Assembly (NCBI GenBank): GCA_937924525.1 | Contig: CALDSU010000008.1 | Location: 186,001-250,000 of the forward strand | Reading direction: 5' to 3' | From: an uncultured Bryobacteraceae bacterium | GTDB lineage: Bacteria > Acidobacteriota > Terriglobia > Bryobacterales > Bryobacteraceae | Length of the DNA stretch: 64,000 nt | Part shown: one piece after another, positions 37,463-45,941 of the stretch | Layout of the letters: each line of letters begins with the position of its first letter | Position numbering within the stretch: the stretch's first letter is position 1 | The notes under the pieces: model-generated | The model's database searches: none | Told to the model about the DNA's origin: nothing | What the model saw: the letters and a program-made list of their open reading frames with translations, nothing else | Translations under genes and position numbers: made by a program

Positions 37463-37843
37463 ATGCCTAAACTTATCGTACAGCCGGCGCGAATTCCCGG
37501 CGCCGGGTCCCCGTCCAAGCAAATCGACGAGTACATCGGCCGAGTGAATTCAGAAACATCCGCCGTCAGCATCGCCCTCATGCGGAGCCCCGCGGGCTGG
37601 CAGGAACCCGGGCAACGTCCCGCGTTCGACGAGTACACCGTGGTGCTCCGGGGCACGCTCCGGGTAGAACACGAGGGAGGCGTCCTGGAAGTGGGGGCGG
37701 GACAAGCCGTGATCGCCACCCGGGGGGAATGGGTGCGCTACTCGACGCCCGGACCCCACGGCGCCGAGTATGTGGCGGTGTGCGTGCCGGCCTTCTCGCT
37801 GGCGGACGCCCGCCGCGACCCGGACGGGGGCGCTACTGAATGA
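37463..37843 (+). CDS. Cupin-domain protein
   Basis: A 126-residue single-domain cupin. The beta-barrel motifs are PGQRPAFDEYTVVLRGTLRVEHEGG and GAGQAVIATRGEWVRYSTPGPHGAEYVAV. The first motif lacks the usual pair of histidines (it reads RPAFDEY), so metal binding is altered or absent and the catalytic role is doubtful. It is probably a small binding protein or sensor. Its 3' end overlaps the end of the TolC-like gene (11 bases, opposite strands). Confidence 0.85.
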   Translation: MPKLIVQPARIPGAGSPSKQIDEYIGRVNSETSAVSIALMRSPAGWQEPGQRPAFDEYTVVLRGTLRVEHEGGVLEVGAGQAVIATRGEWVRYSTPGPHGAEYVAVCVPAFSLADARRDPDGGATE

Positions 37844-39494
37844 GAATGCCGCGCTCCTCCAACAGTTCTCCGCTGAGGCGCAGCAGGTTCACCAGGTTCC
37901 GACGGAAAGCCACCGACTGAGTCACCACCTGCGATTCGGCGCTGATGAGGTCGGTTTGGGCTTGCAGTACGATAAAAATCTGGCTGGTGCCGAGCTCGTA
38001 TTTTCGCTGCTCGGCCTCGAGCCGCTTGCGGGCAAAGTCGAGCGCCTTTAAGGAAAGGTCCAGGCCCTCCTTGGCCGACTCCACCTGGTTCACCGCGTTC
38101 AGCACTTCCTGCCGGATCTGTTGTTCCACCTGGCGGACGAAAAGCGTATCCCGGCGCCGGGCTACCAGCGCATCCGCCAGGTTGGCCTGGGCCTGCCGGT
38201 CGCGAATGGGCAGCCGCAGACGCAGCCCGAATTGGTAGACCGGAAACCCGAAGCCGAACAGTTGATCCAAGGCATCGCCGACGCCGCCGGGAATCAGGCG
38301 GGTGACGATCGATGGCTGGCCGGTATCGGAAAACACATTGGTGCGTTCCAGGAAGTTACCGCCTCGCCCCTGGCTGGTGTAGCCGCCGGTGAGCGCGAAA
38401 TCCGGCTTCAATTGATCCCGCGCCTGGCGGATCGACAATTCGTCGATGTCCAGCGCCTGGAGCGCGGACTTCAAGTCCGGGCGCAGGGTTAACGCCCGGG
38501 CGACGGCGGCTTCCGCGTCAATCTTGTTCAGACCGGTCGGCGGGGCCGGATCTTCCGTCAGCACGATCGGCAGCCGGCGGATCTCAGGATCCAGGTCGGC
38601 ACCGATTTGACGCCGGAGCAGGTCGTCCTGCTGGGCCACCAGGTAACGCGCCTGGGTGACGTTGGCCTGCGCCTGCGCAAACTGAAACTCCGGCTGATAG
38701 ATGTCCAAACGGGAGATGGCGCCGAGTTCGAGTTCGCGGCGGGCTCTCTTCAGGAAAGCCTCGGCCAGTTCCAAGGCCCGTTCCTGCACTTTCAGGTTTT
38801 CGCGCAGTTCCACGCCCCGCCAGTAGATCAGTTCCGCCTGCGCAACCAGCCGGAGCAGCGTGTCCTTTAGGTTCTGTTCGGTCTGGCGCAGCCGGCTGCG
38901 CGCCACCATGATCGGGATCTTCTGGACCGACCCGCCGCGTCCCCGCAGCAGCGGCTGCGCAAAATCGAACCGGAGGTTGGTGGTGAACTGGGGATTGAAC
39001 ACCGCGAACGAGTCGTTGGTAGTGAACTTCTGCCCGAAGAAACTGATGTTGTACTGCATGCCGTTGGTCAGGGTTTGCTGATAACCCAGATTCAGCGGCT
39101 GGGACAGCGTCTTCAGCGTGGCCGCGCCTTGCAGGACGCTGGTCGTGGGCTGGGTGTTGCGCGTGGCGTTGAACTGGGCGATGCCCAGCGGATCGAACGG
39201 GGCGAAGGCGCGCGTGATCTGGTTCCGGGCCGTCTCCACGGTCAGCCGCGAGATCGCGATTTCCGTGTTGTTGGCGGCGACCAATTCCAGGTACGAACGC
39301 AGCGACAGCTCCAGCCGGTCGCCTACCCGGTAGTCGCGGAGCTTGACGGGTTCCTCCAATTGGACGCGGGCCTCGGGCTTTTGAAAAATATACCGGAAGT
39401 AGTCCGCTTTCGGAAAGAAAGGCGCCGGCTTGGGATCCTGCGCCGCCGCGGAGAAAGCGCACAGGACACCCACGGCAAAACGGGTCCAAGACAT
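37833..39494 (-). CDS. TolC-family outer-membrane efflux channel
   Basis: Length is 553 residues from the ATG at 39494, chosen because a signal peptide (MSWTRFAVGVLCAFSAAAQ) begins there; an earlier start would overlap the permease gene. Two OEP repeats follow with long coiled-coil stretches (ARNQITRAF, LKDTLLRLVAQAELIYWRGVELRENLKVQERALELAEAF; later ALDFARKRLEAEQRKYELGTSQIFIVLQAQTDLISAES). This is the outer-membrane exit duct of the export operon. It is the last gene of that operon. Confidence 0.9.
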   Translation of the reverse strand: MSWTRFAVGVLCAFSAAAQDPKPAPFFPKADYFRYIFQKPEARVQLEEPVKLRDYRVGDRLELSLRSYLELVAANNTEIAISRLTVETARNQITRAFAPFDPLGIAQFNATRNTQPTTSVLQGAATLKTLSQPLNLGYQQTLTNGMQYNISFFGQKFTTNDSFAVFNPQFTTNLRFDFAQPLLRGRGGSVQKIPIMVARSRLRQTEQNLKDTLLRLVAQAELIYWRGVELRENLKVQERALELAEAFLKRARRELELGAISRLDIYQPEFQFAQAQANVTQARYLVAQQDDLLRRQIGADLDPEIRRLPIVLTEDPAPPTGLNKIDAEAAVARALTLRPDLKSALQALDIDELSIRQARDQLKPDFALTGGYTSQGRGGNFLERTNVFSDTGQPSIVTRLIPGGVGDALDQLFGFGFPVYQFGLRLRLPIRDRQAQANLADALVARRRDTLFVRQVEQQIRQEVLNAVNQVESAKEGLDLSLKALDFARKRLEAEQRKYELGTSQIFIVLQAQTDLISAESQVVTQSVAFRRNLVNLLRLSGELLEERGILIQ

Positions 39495-39501
39495 AGGTGA
39501 G

Positions 39502-40755
39502 TTACTCGTAGCGAATGGCCTCAATGGGATCCAGTTTGGCGGCCTGGACGGCCGGGTAGATGCCGAACAGCAGTCCGATGGCGACCGACACGCCGAAGGC
39601 GACCGAAATCGAAGAGGTGGTCACCACGGTGGGCCAGCCGGCTTGGAGAGAAATGACTCGCGACAGGCCAAAGCCGAACGCGATGCCGATCAGGCCGCCG
39701 ATGATGGAGATCATGACGGCTTCGGTAAGGAACTGTCGAATAATATCGCCCTGGCGTGCGCCGATGGCGCGGCGGATGCCAATCTCACGCGTCCGCTCGA
39801 GCACCGTCGCCAGCATGATGTTCATGATGCCAATGCCGCCGACCAGCAGCGAGATGCCGGCGATGCAGATCATGACGATGGCGAAGATCTTTTGCGTTTC
39901 CTGCCGCTGCTTCAGCAGGCCCGCGGGCACCACCACAGTGAAGTCTCCCGCGTCCTTGTGCGTCGACGACAGGATGGCCCGCACCACACCCTCGGTTTCA
40001 ATCGAGTCGGTGCCCGGCCGCAGCTTGATGTAGATCCCGTCGATCTCGTCCTTGAGCCAGCTCATGTTGTCGTCAAACCGGCGCATCACCGTATTCAGAG
40101 GCGCGACAATCAGGTTGTTGCGGCTGAGAGTCTGCGCCGATTCGTCGTCGCTGCTGCCGCCCTGCGAAGCCATCACGCCGATGACCCGCAGCCACTGGTC
40201 ATTCACCTTGATCCACTTGCCCACCGCGTCGTCGTAGCCCAGCAGGTTTACCTTGGCGGTTTCGCCCAGCACGCACACCGCCTCCGAACGGATGTTTTCG
40301 TCCTCGTTGAAGAAGCGTCCGGACACCATGCGCAGGCTTTGGATCTCGCGGTAGTTCGGGTACACGCCAATCAACTGGGGGGGCTCCTGGCCGGTCTTGG
40401 GCAGAACCTTCTGGGGCTTGAATCGCTTCCGGGGCGTGATGTGCTCAATCCCGGGCACGTTTTCGCTCAGGGCGCGGTAGTCGCGAAACGTCAAGCCGGG
40501 GGAGATGGCCCGAATGGTTTGCAGTTCGGTAGGGTCGCTGGCTTCGCGCGCTTCGATGATGATGTTGTTGACGCCCAGTTGGTCAATCATATTCATCATT
40601 TCTTTTTGCGCGCCGGCCGTAATGGACAGCATCGCCACCACGGCGCCCACGCCGAAAATCATTCCCAGCATGGTCAGCAGACTGCGGAGTTTGTGCACCA
40701 GGAGGCTGGACAGCCCCATCTGCAGTTCCGGGAGATAGCCGCTTAGATGCGCCAT
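39502..40755 (-). CDS. MacB/FtsX-type ABC transporter permease without ATPase domain
   Basis: A 417-residue permease. After a short amphipathic start (MGLSSLLVHKLRSLLTMLGMIFG) comes a first membrane helix, a large periplasmic MacB-type domain (about 50-280), and three C-terminal helices (IFAIVMICIAGISLLVGGIGIMNIMLATVLERTREIGIRRAIGA, then AVMISIIGGLIGIAFGFGL, and SISVAFGVSVAIGLLFGIYPA). True MacB carries an N-terminal ATPase; none is present here or elsewhere in the operon, so an ATPase encoded elsewhere must power it. It lies between adaptor and channel genes. Confidence 0.88.
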   Translation of the reverse strand: MAHLSGYLPELQMGLSSLLVHKLRSLLTMLGMIFGVGAVVAMLSITAGAQKEMMNMIDQLGVNNIIIEAREASDPTELQTIRAISPGLTFRDYRALSENVPGIEHITPRKRFKPQKVLPKTGQEPPQLIGVYPNYREIQSLRMVSGRFFNEDENIRSEAVCVLGETAKVNLLGYDDAVGKWIKVNDQWLRVIGVMASQGGSSDDESAQTLSRNNLIVAPLNTVMRRFDDNMSWLKDEIDGIYIKLRPGTDSIETEGVVRAILSSTHKDAGDFTVVVPAGLLKQRQETQKIFAIVMICIAGISLLVGGIGIMNIMLATVLERTREIGIRRAIGARQGDIIRQFLTEAVMISIIGGLIGIAFGFGLSRVISLQAGWPTVVTTSSISVAFGVSVAIGLLFGIYPAVQAAKLDPIEAIRYE

Positions 40756-40758
40756 AAC

Positions 40759-42798
40759 CTACCGTGTGCTCCTCGAGGCGCCGATGCCTCCCGGGATCGC
40801 TTTCGGCTGGGCGGGCGGCGAGGTCTCTCCGGTCTTTTTCTTCGTCGCGCCGCTGGTCGCGGTCGGATCGGCCAAAGCGATGATCTCGCCCGGCTGTAGC
40901 CCCGAAGCCACCACCATGATCGACTCGCTGCGCTTGGCCGGCTGAATCACGCGGGGCTCAAAACGATTCGGCTTCGTCTGCACGTACACCGTAAACTTTC
41001 CGTCCTTCTCAAAGACCGCTTGAGCCGGGATGTTGATGGCGTTGGGGATCTTCTCCACAATGATCTCGACATCGGCGAGCAGACCCGGCCGGAGCAGGAT
41101 GTCCAACTGCGAGTTCTCCTCGGGGGGCGCCGGCAATTTGGCCTTGGCCATTTCCGCTTCTTCCTCCGGCGTGAGGCCGGTCGCCTTGGGGAGCGGCGCG
41201 CCGAAGCGGAGGCCGCCGGGCGCGCCCTCGGCCTCTTTGCGCCCTTCGGCGGGACGCTGCCGTCCGCCGCCAGGTCCGCCGCCGGCCAGTTCGCGCATCC
41301 GGGCGAAAATCCGGCCGCGTTCTTCCTGCGAAAGATCCGCGATCTTCCGGCCCTTGAGCTCCTTCTGGATTTCTTTCTTCACGGTGTCCGGCAGGCGGTC
41401 GATGAACTGCTGAAACATCGCCGCGCGCTGCTCGGGGGTCAGGGAACCGAAGCCTCCGCCCCCGGGTCTGCCTCCTCCCGGCGCTCCGCCCGGCACGGCC
41501 CCGGGAATCCCCCCGCCGGGTCCGAACGCGCCGGGCGCTCCGGGCGCCGCGGCAGCCGGCCCGGGCATTCCGCCGCCCGGCGCTCCACCAGCCATCATGC
41601 CGCCGGCGCCCGCCGCTCCTCCAAGAGCGCCCAGGGCGTTTCCTCCGCCCATTCCGCCGGCGCCCCCGGGCGGTCCGCCGCCCATACCCGGAAATCCTCC
41701 AAAACCGGAGAGAGCCAGCGCCGCCGGAGCCTTCCTGGCGTTCTCCGCGGCGGTCGCCAGCACACGCCGGATCTGTTCCTCACTGGCGCCAAGCCCGCGC
41801 AACAGATTCGCCATATCGATGGAGAACACGACGTCGAATTTCTTGCCCGGATCGCCGCCGAACGGGTTCGCCGTCGCCGTGGCGCTCATCGACTTGATCT
41901 TGCCCGCGAAAACCTTCTCGGGCACGGCGTCAAGCTGAATGTTCACGTCCAACCCTTCGCGCAGGTTCGCCCGATCCAACTCGCCTACCTTCGCGATGAT
42001 CTCCATCTCAGAGAGATCCATCACGTCCGCCACCTGCATGCCCGGTTGCACGGTGTCGCCTTCCCGGAACTCGGGAAGCTGCTGCCCGAACATCGCAAAT
42101 CCCGTCCGGTTCTGGCGGACCGCCACCAGTCCCGTGATGGGCGAGGTGACTCTGCTCTGCCGGATGCGCTGTTTCTCGCGATCCAGGTCGATCAAGCTCT
42201 TGTTGCGCCGCTCGCGCAGCACCGCAAGTTCCGCTTCCGCCTGGGCTTGCCGGGACTGAATATCGCTTTCCAACTGCTGCAAACGCCGGCGCGCCTCTTC
42301 CAGATTGAGGATGTTCTTTTTCTGATCGATCTCGGCGAGCAGCTCGTTGCGCTGGACTTCCAGTTCAGCCCTGCGGACGGCGTAACGCGCGCGCAACAGT
42401 TCCACTTGGTCCTGGTTATTGCGCATCATCAGGTCCGCCTGGGCTTTCTTGATCTGCTCATCGATCTGCTCGACTTCGAGCAAGGTCTCTTCCAGGGCGG
42501 CGCGCCGCTCCGAGTCGTCGAACTCGATGATGAGGTCGGATTCCCGGGCCAGCGCGCCAATGGGCGCGAGCCGGGTGATTTGCACAGTGGTGAACAGGTT
42601 TGGCGCGGTCAGCGTCGCCTGGCGCACCGCCCGCAGTTCTCCGCGCGTGTAAGCCCGCACGACCACATCGCTTTGCCGGACCCGGGTGGTGGCGATGGTT
42701 CGGGAAGAACCGCCCCCCGGGAAAAGGTACTTCCAGGCCACCCAGCCGCCGGCAGCCAGGAGGGCGATGAAAATGATCCGCGAGATGATTCTCTTCAT
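40759..42798 (-). CDS. HlyD/MacA-type periplasmic adaptor with Gly/Pro-rich insert
   Basis: A 679-residue adaptor. A membrane anchor (about 5-27) precedes the lipoyl/hairpin region, with a long coiled coil (about 100-215: EQIDEQIKKAQADLM, LEEARRRLQQLESDIQSRQAQAEAEL) and VTSPITGLVAVRQNRTGFAMF. The beta-barrel starts IIAKVGELDRANLREGLDV. From about 334 to 562 a 230-residue insert interrupts the barrel, rich in Gly, Pro, Ala and Met (GGFPGMGGGPPGGAGG and similar), with a short charged helical core (LTPEQRAAMFQQFIDRLPD). The barrel resumes with ILLRPGLLADVEIIVEK. It is the third adaptor in transcription order. Confidence 0.88.
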   Translation of the reverse strand: MKRIISRIIFIALLAAGGWVAWKYLFPGGGSSRTIATTRVRQSDVVVRAYTRGELRAVRQATLTAPNLFTTVQITRLAPIGALARESDLIIEFDDSERRAALEETLLEVEQIDEQIKKAQADLMMRNNQDQVELLRARYAVRRAELEVQRNELLAEIDQKKNILNLEEARRRLQQLESDIQSRQAQAEAELAVLRERRNKSLIDLDREKQRIRQSRVTSPITGLVAVRQNRTGFAMFGQQLPEFREGDTVQPGMQVADVMDLSEMEIIAKVGELDRANLREGLDVNIQLDAVPEKVFAGKIKSMSATATANPFGGDPGKKFDVVFSIDMANLLRGLGASEEQIRRVLATAAENARKAPAALALSGFGGFPGMGGGPPGGAGGMGGGNALGALGGAAGAGGMMAGGAPGGGMPGPAAAAPGAPGAFGPGGGIPGAVPGGAPGGGRPGGGGFGSLTPEQRAAMFQQFIDRLPDTVKKEIQKELKGRKIADLSQEERGRIFARMRELAGGGPGGGRQRPAEGRKEAEGAPGGLRFGAPLPKATGLTPEEEAEMAKAKLPAPPEENSQLDILLRPGLLADVEIIVEKIPNAINIPAQAVFEKDGKFTVYVQTKPNRFEPRVIQPAKRSESIMVVASGLQPGEIIALADPTATSGATKKKTGETSPPAQPKAIPGGIGASRSTR

Positions 42799-42803
42799 GG
42801 ACG

Positions 42804-44108
42804 CTACAACTTCTTCCGGGCGCGGCGGGACGCCTCAATGGGATCCTCCAGCGTGACGATCTCGTTTTCCTGCAACCCGCCCAGCACCACAAGGTCGTCT
42901 TCGTTACGCTGGCCTACTTTGATCTCGCGCAACTGAAACTGGAGGCCGCGCTGCACGTAAACGGACGGTTTGCCCTGGCGGCTGAAACTCGCCTTCAAGG
43001 GGATCATCAGCACATTCGGATAGCGCTCGATGATGATCTCCGCCGACGCGCTCATTCCGGGGCGCAGACGCGCATCCACCGTTTGCAGCGTGGCGCGGGC
43101 CGGGAACAGTTTCTCGGAACTGCCAAATCCCTTGTAGACCAGCGACGCAATGGGGCTGATCCAGTCCAGCTCCCCTTGAAACTCCTTATCCGGAATGGCG
43201 TCCACGCGGATGCGCACCGGTTGCCCGAGTTTCAGCTTGCCACGGTCCACCTCTTCCAGCTTCAGTTCAATCCGCATCTCCGAGAGGTCCGGGATCTCGG
43301 CAATGGCCGCGCCGGTCCAAGCCCGGTCCCCTTCCTTGAACGCCGGCGGCGTCTGTCCCCAGGATCCGCCTACCCGAAAATTGGGCAGGATGTTCACGAT
43401 GCCATCCACCGGAGCGCGCAGGACCATCTTGGACAAATAGCTTTGCGCCAGGTTGCGGTCGCGGATCGTTTTGTCTTTCCTCTCGGCCAGCCGGTCCAGG
43501 TCCGCCTGTTGCGAAATTTTGCGGGAGTCGAGCACCGTCTTCACCTGTTTCAGTTCGCCTTCCGACACCCCGACCTGAATGCGGTTCTTGGCGCCTTCAA
43601 TCTCCGAGACAATTTCGGCCTTGCTGGCTTCCAGCTGGGCCCGCTGGACGTTGTACTCGGCCTGCATCAAACTCATGGCGTCCATTTCATCCACGATTTT
43701 GTGCTGGGCCTTGGTCTGCACAATCTCGCTGTCAGCGGTTCGGACGGTGGTTTCGCGCTCGATCAGGTTCTGCCGTTGCTGTTCGGGATCGAATTCAACG
43801 ATCACTTCGCCCTTGCGCACCTGTTTGCCGTTCTCCGCCAGCTTGACGATGCGCGGTTCGGGCACCTGCGGCGCCGTAAGGATCACCGAGCGGGTGGCGC
43901 GAATCTCGCCACGCGTACGGACCGAAACGACAAAATCGCCGCGCCGGACTTTGGCCACGGGAACATCGACCTCCGTGGTCGCGGTGTACCGGTAAGCCGC
44001 GTAGCCACCTCCGGCGCACAGGAGCACGGCAATGCTCCAGCCGATCAACCGGCGGCGCAGCGACTTCCGCTGGCCCAATCTTGCTTTCGGTTTCAGGTCC
44101 TTGGACAT
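42804..44108 (-). CDS. HlyD/MacA-type periplasmic adaptor
   Basis: A 434-residue adaptor of ordinary size. The N-terminal membrane anchor is WSIAVLLCAGGGYAAYRYT, the lipoyl half-motifs are VRTRGEIRATRSVILTAPQ and VDGIVNILPNFRVGGSW, and the hairpin is QRAQLEASKAEIVSEIEGAKN to KDKTIRDRNLAQSYLSKM. The beta-barrel and membrane-proximal domain follow (MSASAEIIIERYPNVLMIP, GGLQENEIVTLEDPIEASR). No insert is present. Five bases separate it from the following adaptor, so the set is one transcript. Confidence 0.92.
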   Translation of the reverse strand: MSKDLKPKARLGQRKSLRRRLIGWSIAVLLCAGGGYAAYRYTATTEVDVPVAKVRRGDFVVSVRTRGEIRATRSVILTAPQVPEPRIVKLAENGKQVRKGEVIVEFDPEQQRQNLIERETTVRTADSEIVQTKAQHKIVDEMDAMSLMQAEYNVQRAQLEASKAEIVSEIEGAKNRIQVGVSEGELKQVKTVLDSRKISQQADLDRLAERKDKTIRDRNLAQSYLSKMVLRAPVDGIVNILPNFRVGGSWGQTPPAFKEGDRAWTGAAIAEIPDLSEMRIELKLEEVDRGKLKLGQPVRIRVDAIPDKEFQGELDWISPIASLVYKGFGSSEKLFPARATLQTVDARLRPGMSASAEIIIERYPNVLMIPLKASFSRQGKPSVYVQRGLQFQLREIKVGQRNEDDLVVLGGLQENEIVTLEDPIEASRRARKKL

Positions 44109-44126
44109 GCGCGCCTCTTCACCTTG

Positions 44127-45941
44127 CTAACTTTCCTTGCGGGCGGCCGCGGGCTCGGCGAGGCTGACCACATCGCCGGGCTTCAGGCCCGACTTCACCG
44201 AGATCCGCAGCGTGTCCGTGCCGCCCAATTCCACTTCCTGGCGGCTCCACTCGCGGGGTCCGCGCAGAAACACAAACGATTTGCCGGTCTGGCGATCACG
44301 GAACACCGCGTCGACGGGGATCAGCGCCGCGGAGGACTCGCGGCTAACGACCACGTCTGCGCTGGCGGACAGATCCGGGATGACCCGCGGATCCTGCTCG
44401 TCCAACTTCAGGCGGAGCGGCAGGGTCTTCATGAAATTGGCCCGGCGCCCCGCCACCGGGACCGCGCCGATCGAGTACACGCGGCCCCGCAGCCGCATCC
44501 CCGGGAAGGCGTCCAACTCGATCGTGGCGGGCTGCCCGATCCGCAGCAACTCGGCATCTACCTGGTTGACCGTGGCGTTTACGACCATCGACGACGGGTC
44601 CACAATCTGCATGAACATCTGGCCGGGATACAACTGGTCGCCCACCTGCACCTGGCCTTGCTCCGAGCCGCGCCGGATCGTCTGCATCACGACCACGCCG
44701 TCCATGGGAGCCTTCACGATCAGCCGGTCGGCGTTATTCTCAGCCCGGCGTAATTCCAGCCTGGTTTTGTTCAGATCCAGTTCCGCCGCCCGCAGCTCCG
44801 CCTCTTGGGAAATACGGCTCAACTCCTCCTCGCGGAGGATTTGGCGATAGCGGGCTTCGGCCTCCTCGGCCGCCAGTTTCAGCCGCGTGGCATCCATGTC
44901 GGAGACCACTTCCAGCGTCTTCAGGTCTAGGCGCGCCTTCTCCAGGTCCGCCTTGGCGACCCGAATCCGCTGCGCCAGGGTCTCCCGGGCAACGGCTTGA
45001 TCCGCCTTCAGCTTACGCAGGTCCGCTTCGGTCTGAATCACGGACGCCTTGTAGTCATCCAGCCTGTTCAGCATGTATTGACGGTCGAATTCGGCCACCA
45101 CGTCGCCCTTGCGGACCGTCGAGCCCGGCGTCGCCAGCGAGAGCAGGACCATGGTCCACTCTCCCCCGCCGCCTCCGCTTCCCATGCGGGAGACCGAAAA
45201 CAAGCTGCCGCTGGTCGATCCCAACCCCCCCGAAACCGAGGACGCGCTGGCGGAAGCGCCCGAGGAAGACCCGGAGGGGGAGGTTCTCGATGAACCCGAA
45301 CGGACGGCGGACCGGTCGCTGAAACGGTTGGTGGAGCCGCGCATGGCGCCCAGGCTCGCCGCGCCGGAGCCGATATTGGCGTTGAGGGCCGCATTGGCGG
45401 AGCCGCCCCCGCCCGCACCGTCCGCGGAAGAAGATGGAGATGAGGAAAGCCCTCCAGCGAACGAACTCAAACTGGCCGAGGAGGCCGCCGCCGTGCTCGT
45501 GGTTCCCGTCGAACCCGAGGAACCCATTCCGGACGAGACGACGCTGGTTCCGCCGCCTCCGGACCGCCGGCTCGATCCATCGCGCCCCCGTCCGCTGCGG
45601 CTTCCCTGCAACTGGGGGACCAGGAGGGCGGCGAAACGCTCCGCCTGGACCGTGCCGCTCAGCCGGATCGTGCGGGTCAGATCGCCGGTTTCCACCACCG
45701 CGGTGGCCACGGGGGCGGCGGTCCCGCCGCCGGATCCGAACTGAAATAGGTCGCGCCCCAGAAAAAGCCCGAGACCGATCAACCCGATCACCGCTCCGGC
45801 GACCCACCACCCGCGCCGCGGGGGGCGCGCCGGGGGCGGGGGCACGATCCGGGGACGCGGCGGGGCAGGCTCCGGCTGAGGCGCCCGCCGCGGATCCGGG
45901 AGCGGCAAACTGCTTAAGTTGGATTGCATCCTAAACCCCAC
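44127..45941 (-). CDS. HlyD/MacA-type periplasmic adaptor with Ser/Gly-rich insert
   Basis: The first gene of the operon in transcription order (604 residues). It starts either at the GTG at 45941 or at the ATG at 45929. A proline-rich cytoplasmic tail (about 15-42) is followed by a membrane helix (WVAGAVIGLIGLGLFLGRDL). The lipoyl-domain strand VPQLQG is broken by about 150 residues (113-262) of Ser/Gly-rich sequence (e.g. SSGSTGTTSTAAASSASLSS). The domain then resumes with MVLLSLATPGSTVRKGDVVAEFD. A coiled-coil hairpin, barrel and C-terminal domain (LSASADVVVSRESSAALIP, GLKPGDVVSLAEPAA) complete it. Confidence 0.88.
   Translation of the reverse strand: MGFRMQSNLSSLPLPDPRRAPQPEPAPPRPRIVPPPPARPPRRGWWVAGAVIGLIGLGLFLGRDLFQFGSGGGTAAPVATAVVETGDLTRTIRLSGTVQAERFAALLVPQLQGSRSGRGRDGSSRRSGGGGTSVVSSGMGSSGSTGTTSTAAASSASLSSFAGGLSSSPSSSADGAGGGGSANAALNANIGSGAASLGAMRGSTNRFSDRSAVRSGSSRTSPSGSSSGASASASSVSGGLGSTSGSLFSVSRMGSGGGGGEWTMVLLSLATPGSTVRKGDVVAEFDRQYMLNRLDDYKASVIQTEADLRKLKADQAVARETLAQRIRVAKADLEKARLDLKTLEVVSDMDATRLKLAAEEAEARYRQILREEELSRISQEAELRAAELDLNKTRLELRRAENNADRLIVKAPMDGVVVMQTIRRGSEQGQVQVGDQLYPGQMFMQIVDPSSMVVNATVNQVDAELLRIGQPATIELDAFPGMRLRGRVYSIGAVPVAGRRANFMKTLPLRLKLDEQDPRVIPDLSASADVVVSRESSAALIPVDAVFRDRQTGKSFVFLRGPREWSRQEVELGGTDTLRISVKSGLKPGDVVSLAEPAAARKES

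Follow-up and report, generated by a model that had tools for sequence, protein, structure and literature searches.

MacAB-TolC, the type VII ATP-binding cassette (ABC) macrolide exporter of Escherichia coli and other bacteria, is built from a single dimer of MacB, a hexamer of MacA and a trimer of TolC (PMC5985334). Here, we describe a five-gene minus-strand operon of an uncultured soil Bryobacteraceae bacterium, located in a stretch of 64,000 nucleotides (nt) referred to as the window (G000:C8:186001-250000, in the 5.5-Mb, 99% complete genome G000), which encodes, in this order, adaptor 1 (AD1), adaptor 2 (AD2), adaptor 3 (AD3), a permease and a TolC-family channel. Bryobacterales and Candidatus Solibacter metagenome-assembled genomes (L068, L069) are the nearest relatives with a name, which places the genome in Acidobacteriota. 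The operon resembles MacAB-TolC in the fold and sequence of its permease, in the coupling helix, in its MacA-type adaptors and in its channel, and both the MacB periplasmic domain and a four-helix FtsX-type permease can be recognized. It departs from MacAB-TolC in that no ATPase domain is fused to the permease or encoded elsewhere in the operon, in having three adaptors instead of a single MacA-type one, and in adaptor hairpins longer than those of several classical MacA-type adaptors. We regard the system as a variant among tripartite exporters of the MacB type and not as a machine of a new kind. The interpretation that we favor, with moderate confidence, is that it constitutes one MacAB-TolC-type pump with three obligatory, non-equivalent adaptors, driven with ATP by an ATPase acting in trans, the best candidate for which is encoded on contig C1 of the same genome.

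Several described systems share part of this arrangement. TriABC-OpmH of Pseudomonas aeruginosa is a resistance-nodulation-division (RND) pump whose use of two adaptors has been read as evidence for a 3:(3+3):3 stoichiometry (PMC13328181), and fused dimeric adaptors are known from DSY0927 (PMC4446572). The present system would have in common with TriABC-OpmH the use of more than one obligatory adaptor type per pump and a product of adaptor number and transporter protomers equal to six, but its transporter is a MacB-type permease, expected to be a dimer, with three adaptors, instead of an RND trimer with two. VarACDEF of Vibrio cholerae is a split MacB-type pump with the ATPase in the cluster and one functional adaptor (PMC5595328); as in our locus, MacB-type permeases and ATPase are separate polypeptides, and adaptor and TolC-like channel lie in one cluster, whereas here the ATPase is outside the cluster and the adaptors are three. 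MsmK-type ATPases, one of which powers several ABC transporters in trans (PMC4519317), are comparable to the single ATPase proposed below for several transporters, although MsmK serves Gram-positive sugar importers, which are another ABC type. The literature search, carried out in a limited collection, returned nothing relevant on three-adaptor operons or orphan permeases. The members of TIGR03434 (ADOP, which we take to mean acidobacterial duplicated orphan permeases) are also MacB-type permeases of Acidobacteriota with no ATPase gene nearby; they are, however, duplicated proteins of ~800 amino acids (aa), whereas the permease of the window is a single 417-aa protein that sits with adaptors and a channel. 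Its membership in this family was ruled out by length and score (134.2 bits against a cut-off of 622.3), and a scan of genome G000 with the ADOP model gave no match above the cut-off.

All five genes were found where the sequence-only reading had placed them, and they are as closely packed as it had described (Table 1): AD1 and AD2 are separated by 18 nt, AD2 and AD3 by 5 nt, AD3 and the permease by 3 nt, and the TTG start of the channel gene lies inside the 3' end of the permease gene, with an overlap of 23 nt. The Pfam scan assigned HlyD domains to the three adaptors, MacB_PCD and FtsX to the permease, and OEP to the channel. The adaptors are indeed non-identical, with 26-33% pairwise identity over the main aligned part. 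The best solved relatives of AD2 are MacA proteins, and MacA of MacAB-TolC also provided the top matches in a Foldseek search with the AlphaFold2 model of AD3. A hydrophobic N-terminal helix is present on each adaptor, as seen in the sequence and, for AD3, also in the model. The alpha-hairpin, measured as the stretch between the lipoyl half-motifs, is 122 residues long in AD1, AD2 and AD3 alike (with two helices of 58 residues in the AD3 model), while between the same anchors it spans 78-92 aa in several classical MacA-type adaptors, and its length varies widely among classical MacA-type and other adaptors. Hairpin length was equal within the locus in 39 of the 41 loci compared, being 122 residues in the window's type of cassette and in Bacteroidota, and 123 in the other cassette type. 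Judging from these lengths and from the 122 residues also measured in single-adaptor relatives, it is set by the geometry of a shared partner, and all three adaptors are predicted to fit the same tier.

The adaptors differ from each other in their inserts. That of AD1 is Ser/Gly-rich (about residues 112-265), and that of AD3 is Gly/Pro-rich (about residues 360-540) and located between the beta-barrel and the membrane-proximal part. The AD3 insert was found in the aligned Bryobacterales-type relatives only, being missing in more distant ones, and it is mostly disordered in the AlphaFold2 model, although a small part of it, residues 455-504, is predicted to be helical. The genome also contains a second AD1-like adaptor gene, 37% identical, at G000:C4:238102-239091.

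The order of the adaptors is conserved across Acidobacteriota and other phyla, in genomes that are mostly drafts, and the positions in the operon correspond to lineages in the adaptor phylogeny. Operon positions required 10 label changes on the adaptor tree, against 61 in shuffles, and in a second tree, inferred with more care, each position of the window-type cassette was a clade, with support of 98-100. In that tree, all 18 window-type sequences formed one clade (99/97), and the three Bacteroidota sequences did likewise (99/97). When position 1, 2 or 3 of the window's type was constrained to group with its counterpart in the other type, the approximately unbiased (AU) tests rejected the constraint (p 0.003, 0.0035 and 7.6e-5, respectively). 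One ancient triplication common to all cassettes was therefore rejected, a result that gene conversion among tandem copies could mimic; unless such conversion homogenized the copies, the trees indicate that triplication arose at least twice independently around one permease family. A recent tandem duplication of one adaptor was ruled out as well, by the low identity and the positional clades. In five genomes (L304, L305, L312, L313, L316), AD1 and AD2 form one polypeptide with two adaptor domains, the first domain of L305 being truncated where the contig ends. AD1 of genus g39 (family f3) lies outside the operon, at a distance of about 5 kb and in the opposite orientation, and still belongs to the AD1 clade (99/97). 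Homologs of AD1 with 38-43% identity, which are candidate orthologs, are found elsewhere in the genomes G007, G047 and G048. In one of the genomes with a fusion (G110, L313:9895-12282), an open frame of roughly 800 aa lies between the fused AD1-AD2 gene and AD3.

Because of the positional clades, the repeated triplication, the AD1-AD2 fusions, the retention of AD1 when unlinked and the equal hairpins, we infer one mixed ring with a single tier. Each permease protomer would recruit one copy each of AD1, AD2 and AD3, and the permease dimer would carry a hexameric ring of single height (two sets of AD1, AD2 and AD3) docked on the TolC trimer. A stoichiometry of 2:(2+2+2):3 would be the simplest arrangement, by analogy with MacAB-TolC and TriABC. 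ATP drive would come from the ATPase supplied in trans (best candidate G000:C1:34562-35296), which is probably used by further permeases of the cell that lack an ATPase. The pump would collect its substrates in the periplasm or the outer leaflet and expel them by a MacB-like bellows movement.

Some observations speak against such a ring. The single-adaptor relatives also have hairpins of 122 residues, which makes this length a clade-wide trait that indicates compatibility and not mixing, and equal length was accordingly downgraded as independent proof of a mixed ring. In addition, the operons of a few relatives contain just two adaptors, and single- and two-adaptor operons with related permeases exist, so three adaptors are not generally required. 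It is nevertheless unlikely that the adaptors act in alternating complexes, one of the possibilities raised by the sequence-only reading, or in different ones, each forming its own homohexamer with this or other permeases. Their low identity, the ability of AD1 to leave the operon, and the presence in G000 of other orphan permeases and of the AD1-like gene on C4 would agree with separate complexes, but these do not account for the constant gene order, the one-to-one orthology of the positions in different phyla, the repeated independent triplication, the natural AD1-AD2 fusions, the common hairpin length and the keeping of AD1 even where it is unlinked.

The absence of a local ATPase, also claimed by the sequence-only reading, was confirmed at two levels. 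The permease aligns to MacB only from about residue 251-279 onward (MacB numbering), that is, without the N-terminal ATPase domain, and a genome-wide scan for PF00005 (ABC_tran) found no match in the window, the nearest ones on the contig being about 95-120 kb away. The same gene order was found to recur in related genomes across Acidobacteriota, almost always without an ATPase. In the class, the permease is present at 66-84% identity or more in 43 of the 61 genomes, and no ATPase was found in the operon in the 36 class loci fetched. In the phylum sample, 57 of the 247 genomes (45 of the 141 genera) had a permease match at E<=1e-75; nearly all of the 39 loci fetched from this sample contain three adaptors and the permease, with an adjacent ATPase in only three (L303, L313, L323), and coordinates show an adjacent ATPase also in G063 and G290. 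Beyond the main classes of the phylum, members of this permease family are accompanied by an ATPase and by two or three adaptors in Aminicenantes (L074), Latescibacterota (L075, with two), Shewanella (L078, L079) and Bacteroidota (L080, L081). The permease tree also contains a large Bacteroidota clade (L083-L141) with a single adaptor and without a linked ATPase; a TolC gene is present in many of its loci.

The cassette arrangement is ancient and widespread, and its presence in dozens of genomes excludes chance or an assembly error. The window's type of cassette (27 rows of the permease tree) has no member with an adjacent ATPase, and in this clade the absence is an ancient, conserved state. 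Because adjacent ATPases occur in other phyla and in a few Acidobacteriota, the gene was gained or lost locally during the evolution of related operons. Of the sequence-only reading's expectation that an ATPase adjacent in relatives would reveal simple local loss, the first part holds, as such genes do exist; simple recent loss does not, since the window's clade is ancestrally without the gene, and a loss local to this genome was ruled out.

That reading had also proposed looking for a partner ATPase elsewhere in the genome, and a candidate was found. FtsX-family permeases are encoded at ten loci of G000, and of its six MacB/Lol-type ATPases, five adjoin a permease. The sole unpaired one, G000:C1:34562-35296, follows directly after a fourth adaptor, with no permease beside it, and is closest by sequence to MacB-type ATPases (5xu1, MJ0796, MacB). 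Every one of the 43 genomes with a permease of >=66% identity has an ortholog of it (70-88%). ATPase trees relate its clade to the ATPases inside the homologous operons of Latescibacterota and Bacteroidota, and the clade includes two ATPases of genus g79 (from G110 and G084) whose genes are immediate neighbors of the permease gene; in G110, the ATG of the ATPase gene overlaps the permease stop by 8 nt. The pair of adaptor and ATPase without permease (G000:C1:33041-35299; L208:8042-10300) is itself conserved in most Acidobacteriota.

The partnership with this ATPase is weakened by three findings. The ATPase is nearly phylum-wide, with a close match (E<=1e-87) in 184 of the 247 phylum genomes, typically in an adaptor-ATPase pair or alone, and it is also found in genomes without this permease, so that its presence alone is not diagnostic. 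In two members of the class (G057 and G059), it shares an operon with another permease pair, which is present in G000 but unlinked. Finally, several more distant Acidobacteriota, for example G065, G081 and the 77% complete G091, carry the cassette with neither an adjacent ATPase nor a close member of this ATPase clade; the ATPase detected in them was a more remote one, if any. Because the ATPase is widespread and occurs with the other pair in G057 and G059, the permease of the window is not its sole partner, and perhaps not a partner here. Family f3 (18 genomes) lost that other pair, and 17 of the 18 keep both the C1-type ATPase and this permease; the remaining genome, G054, is 74% complete and lacks both. 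From these distributions, the C1 ATPase is likely shared among several ATPase-less permeases, including this one.

It is improbable, to much the same degree as separate adaptor complexes, that the permease depends on another ATPase than that of C1, be it dedicated or shared, for instance on a LolD-type one that belongs to one of the five systems with a permease of their own. The other ancestral partners of the C1 ATPase and the existence of five more MacB/Lol-type ATPases would allow for it; all five, however, are directly beside their own permeases, and the C1 clade is the one with members inside homologous operons.

The permease itself preserves the features of an ATP-driven transporter. It scores with MacB_PCD (E 6e-40) and FtsX (E 9e-23), and its AlphaFold2 model (predicted local distance difference test, pLDDT, 82.5) matches the MacB structure 5gko (E 4.5e-25); it remains below the cut-offs of the NCBIfam MacB model (204 bits against 966) and of the LolC/LolE equivalog model (37.3 bits against 362.45). 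In MacB, the major coupling helix between transmembrane helices TM2 and TM3 is the surface that docks on the ATPase (PMC5985334). Residues 301-330 of the permease are homologous to this segment, and on sequence the protein has the TM2-TM3 coupling helix for a MacB/LolD-type ATPase that characterizes type VII permeases. They are also its most conserved stretch: in an alignment of 37 orthologs, the commonest residue was present in >95% of sequences at all 30 columns. Because the docking segment is kept near-invariant, the permease should still be driven by ATP. It is very unlikely that it needs no ATPase at all and merely supports the complex of adaptors and channel passively, as a scaffold, or acts as its sensor; this would fit the lack of a linked ATPase in nearly all of the permease clade, but not the conservation of the coupling-helix segment or the homologous operons that carry an ATPase, once with overlapping genes. 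Hardly credible is the oversized composite duct of the sequence-only reading, taken as three adaptors stacked end to end, to which the mass added by three adaptors and Gly/Ser/Pro-rich inserts and the 122-aa hairpins, longer than those of several classical MacA-type adaptors, would lend themselves, since the hairpins are identical in length, each adaptor has its own membrane anchor, and most of the AD3 insert is predicted to be disordered.

To our knowledge, the known multi-adaptor pumps are those with two adaptors on an RND trimer. Three adaptors on a MacB-type dimer would, if the favored interpretation is true, show ring symmetry as a driver of adaptor specialization and provide a natural asymmetric ring with separately labelable positions. 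What makes the locus of interest is chiefly that adaptors were triplicated repeatedly on a permease expected to be dimeric, and that its ATPase would be supplied in trans and is probably shared. As a tentative generalization, more doubtful than the pump itself, two linked rules may apply: transporter symmetry would set the number of adaptor paralogs (2x3=6 for an RND trimer; 3x2=6 for a MacB-type dimer, evolved at least two times), and a nearly phylum-wide ATPase, usually with a lone adaptor and no permease, would power several orphan MacB-type permeases of Acidobacteriota in trans, this one included and possibly the ADOPs. The C1 adaptor-ATPase pair could provide orphan permeases at large with their motor, the ADOPs among them, and with a candidate motor the acidobacterial gap between many permeases and few ATPases becomes testable.

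Table 1. Features of the operon (positions in the window) and other ATPase-less permease loci of the genome
Feature	Position	Strand	Description
AD1	44127..45941	-	604 aa, GTG start; HlyD/MacA-type periplasmic adaptor; N-terminal membrane helix; Pfam HlyD_3/HlyD_D23
AD2	42804..44108	-	434 aa; MacA-type adaptor; Pfam HlyD_D23, NCBIfam RND_mfp
AD3	40759..42798	-	679 aa; MacA-type adaptor; Pfam HlyD
Permease	39502..40755	-	417 aa; MacB-type (type VII), without nucleotide-binding domain; MacB_PCD and FtsX
Permease residues 301-330	39766..39855	-	End of TM2 and major coupling-helix segment; MacB alignment, ortholog conservation
TolC-family outer-membrane channel	37833..39524	-	563 aa; Pfam OEP E 6.5e-42; TolC chains in PDB
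ATPase-less permease loci	G000:C5:374978-377430 (L205); G000:C14:245738-248210 (L206); G000:C7:99387-100562 (L207); G000:C17:56418-56828 (L214)

The further loci of MacB/FtsX-type permeases in G000 without a neighboring MacB-type ATPase are two tandem pairs and two single genes. A plasmid search gave no match. The operon is flanked by scpA, scpB and a pseudouridine synthase gene (divergent) and by a cupin gene (convergent).

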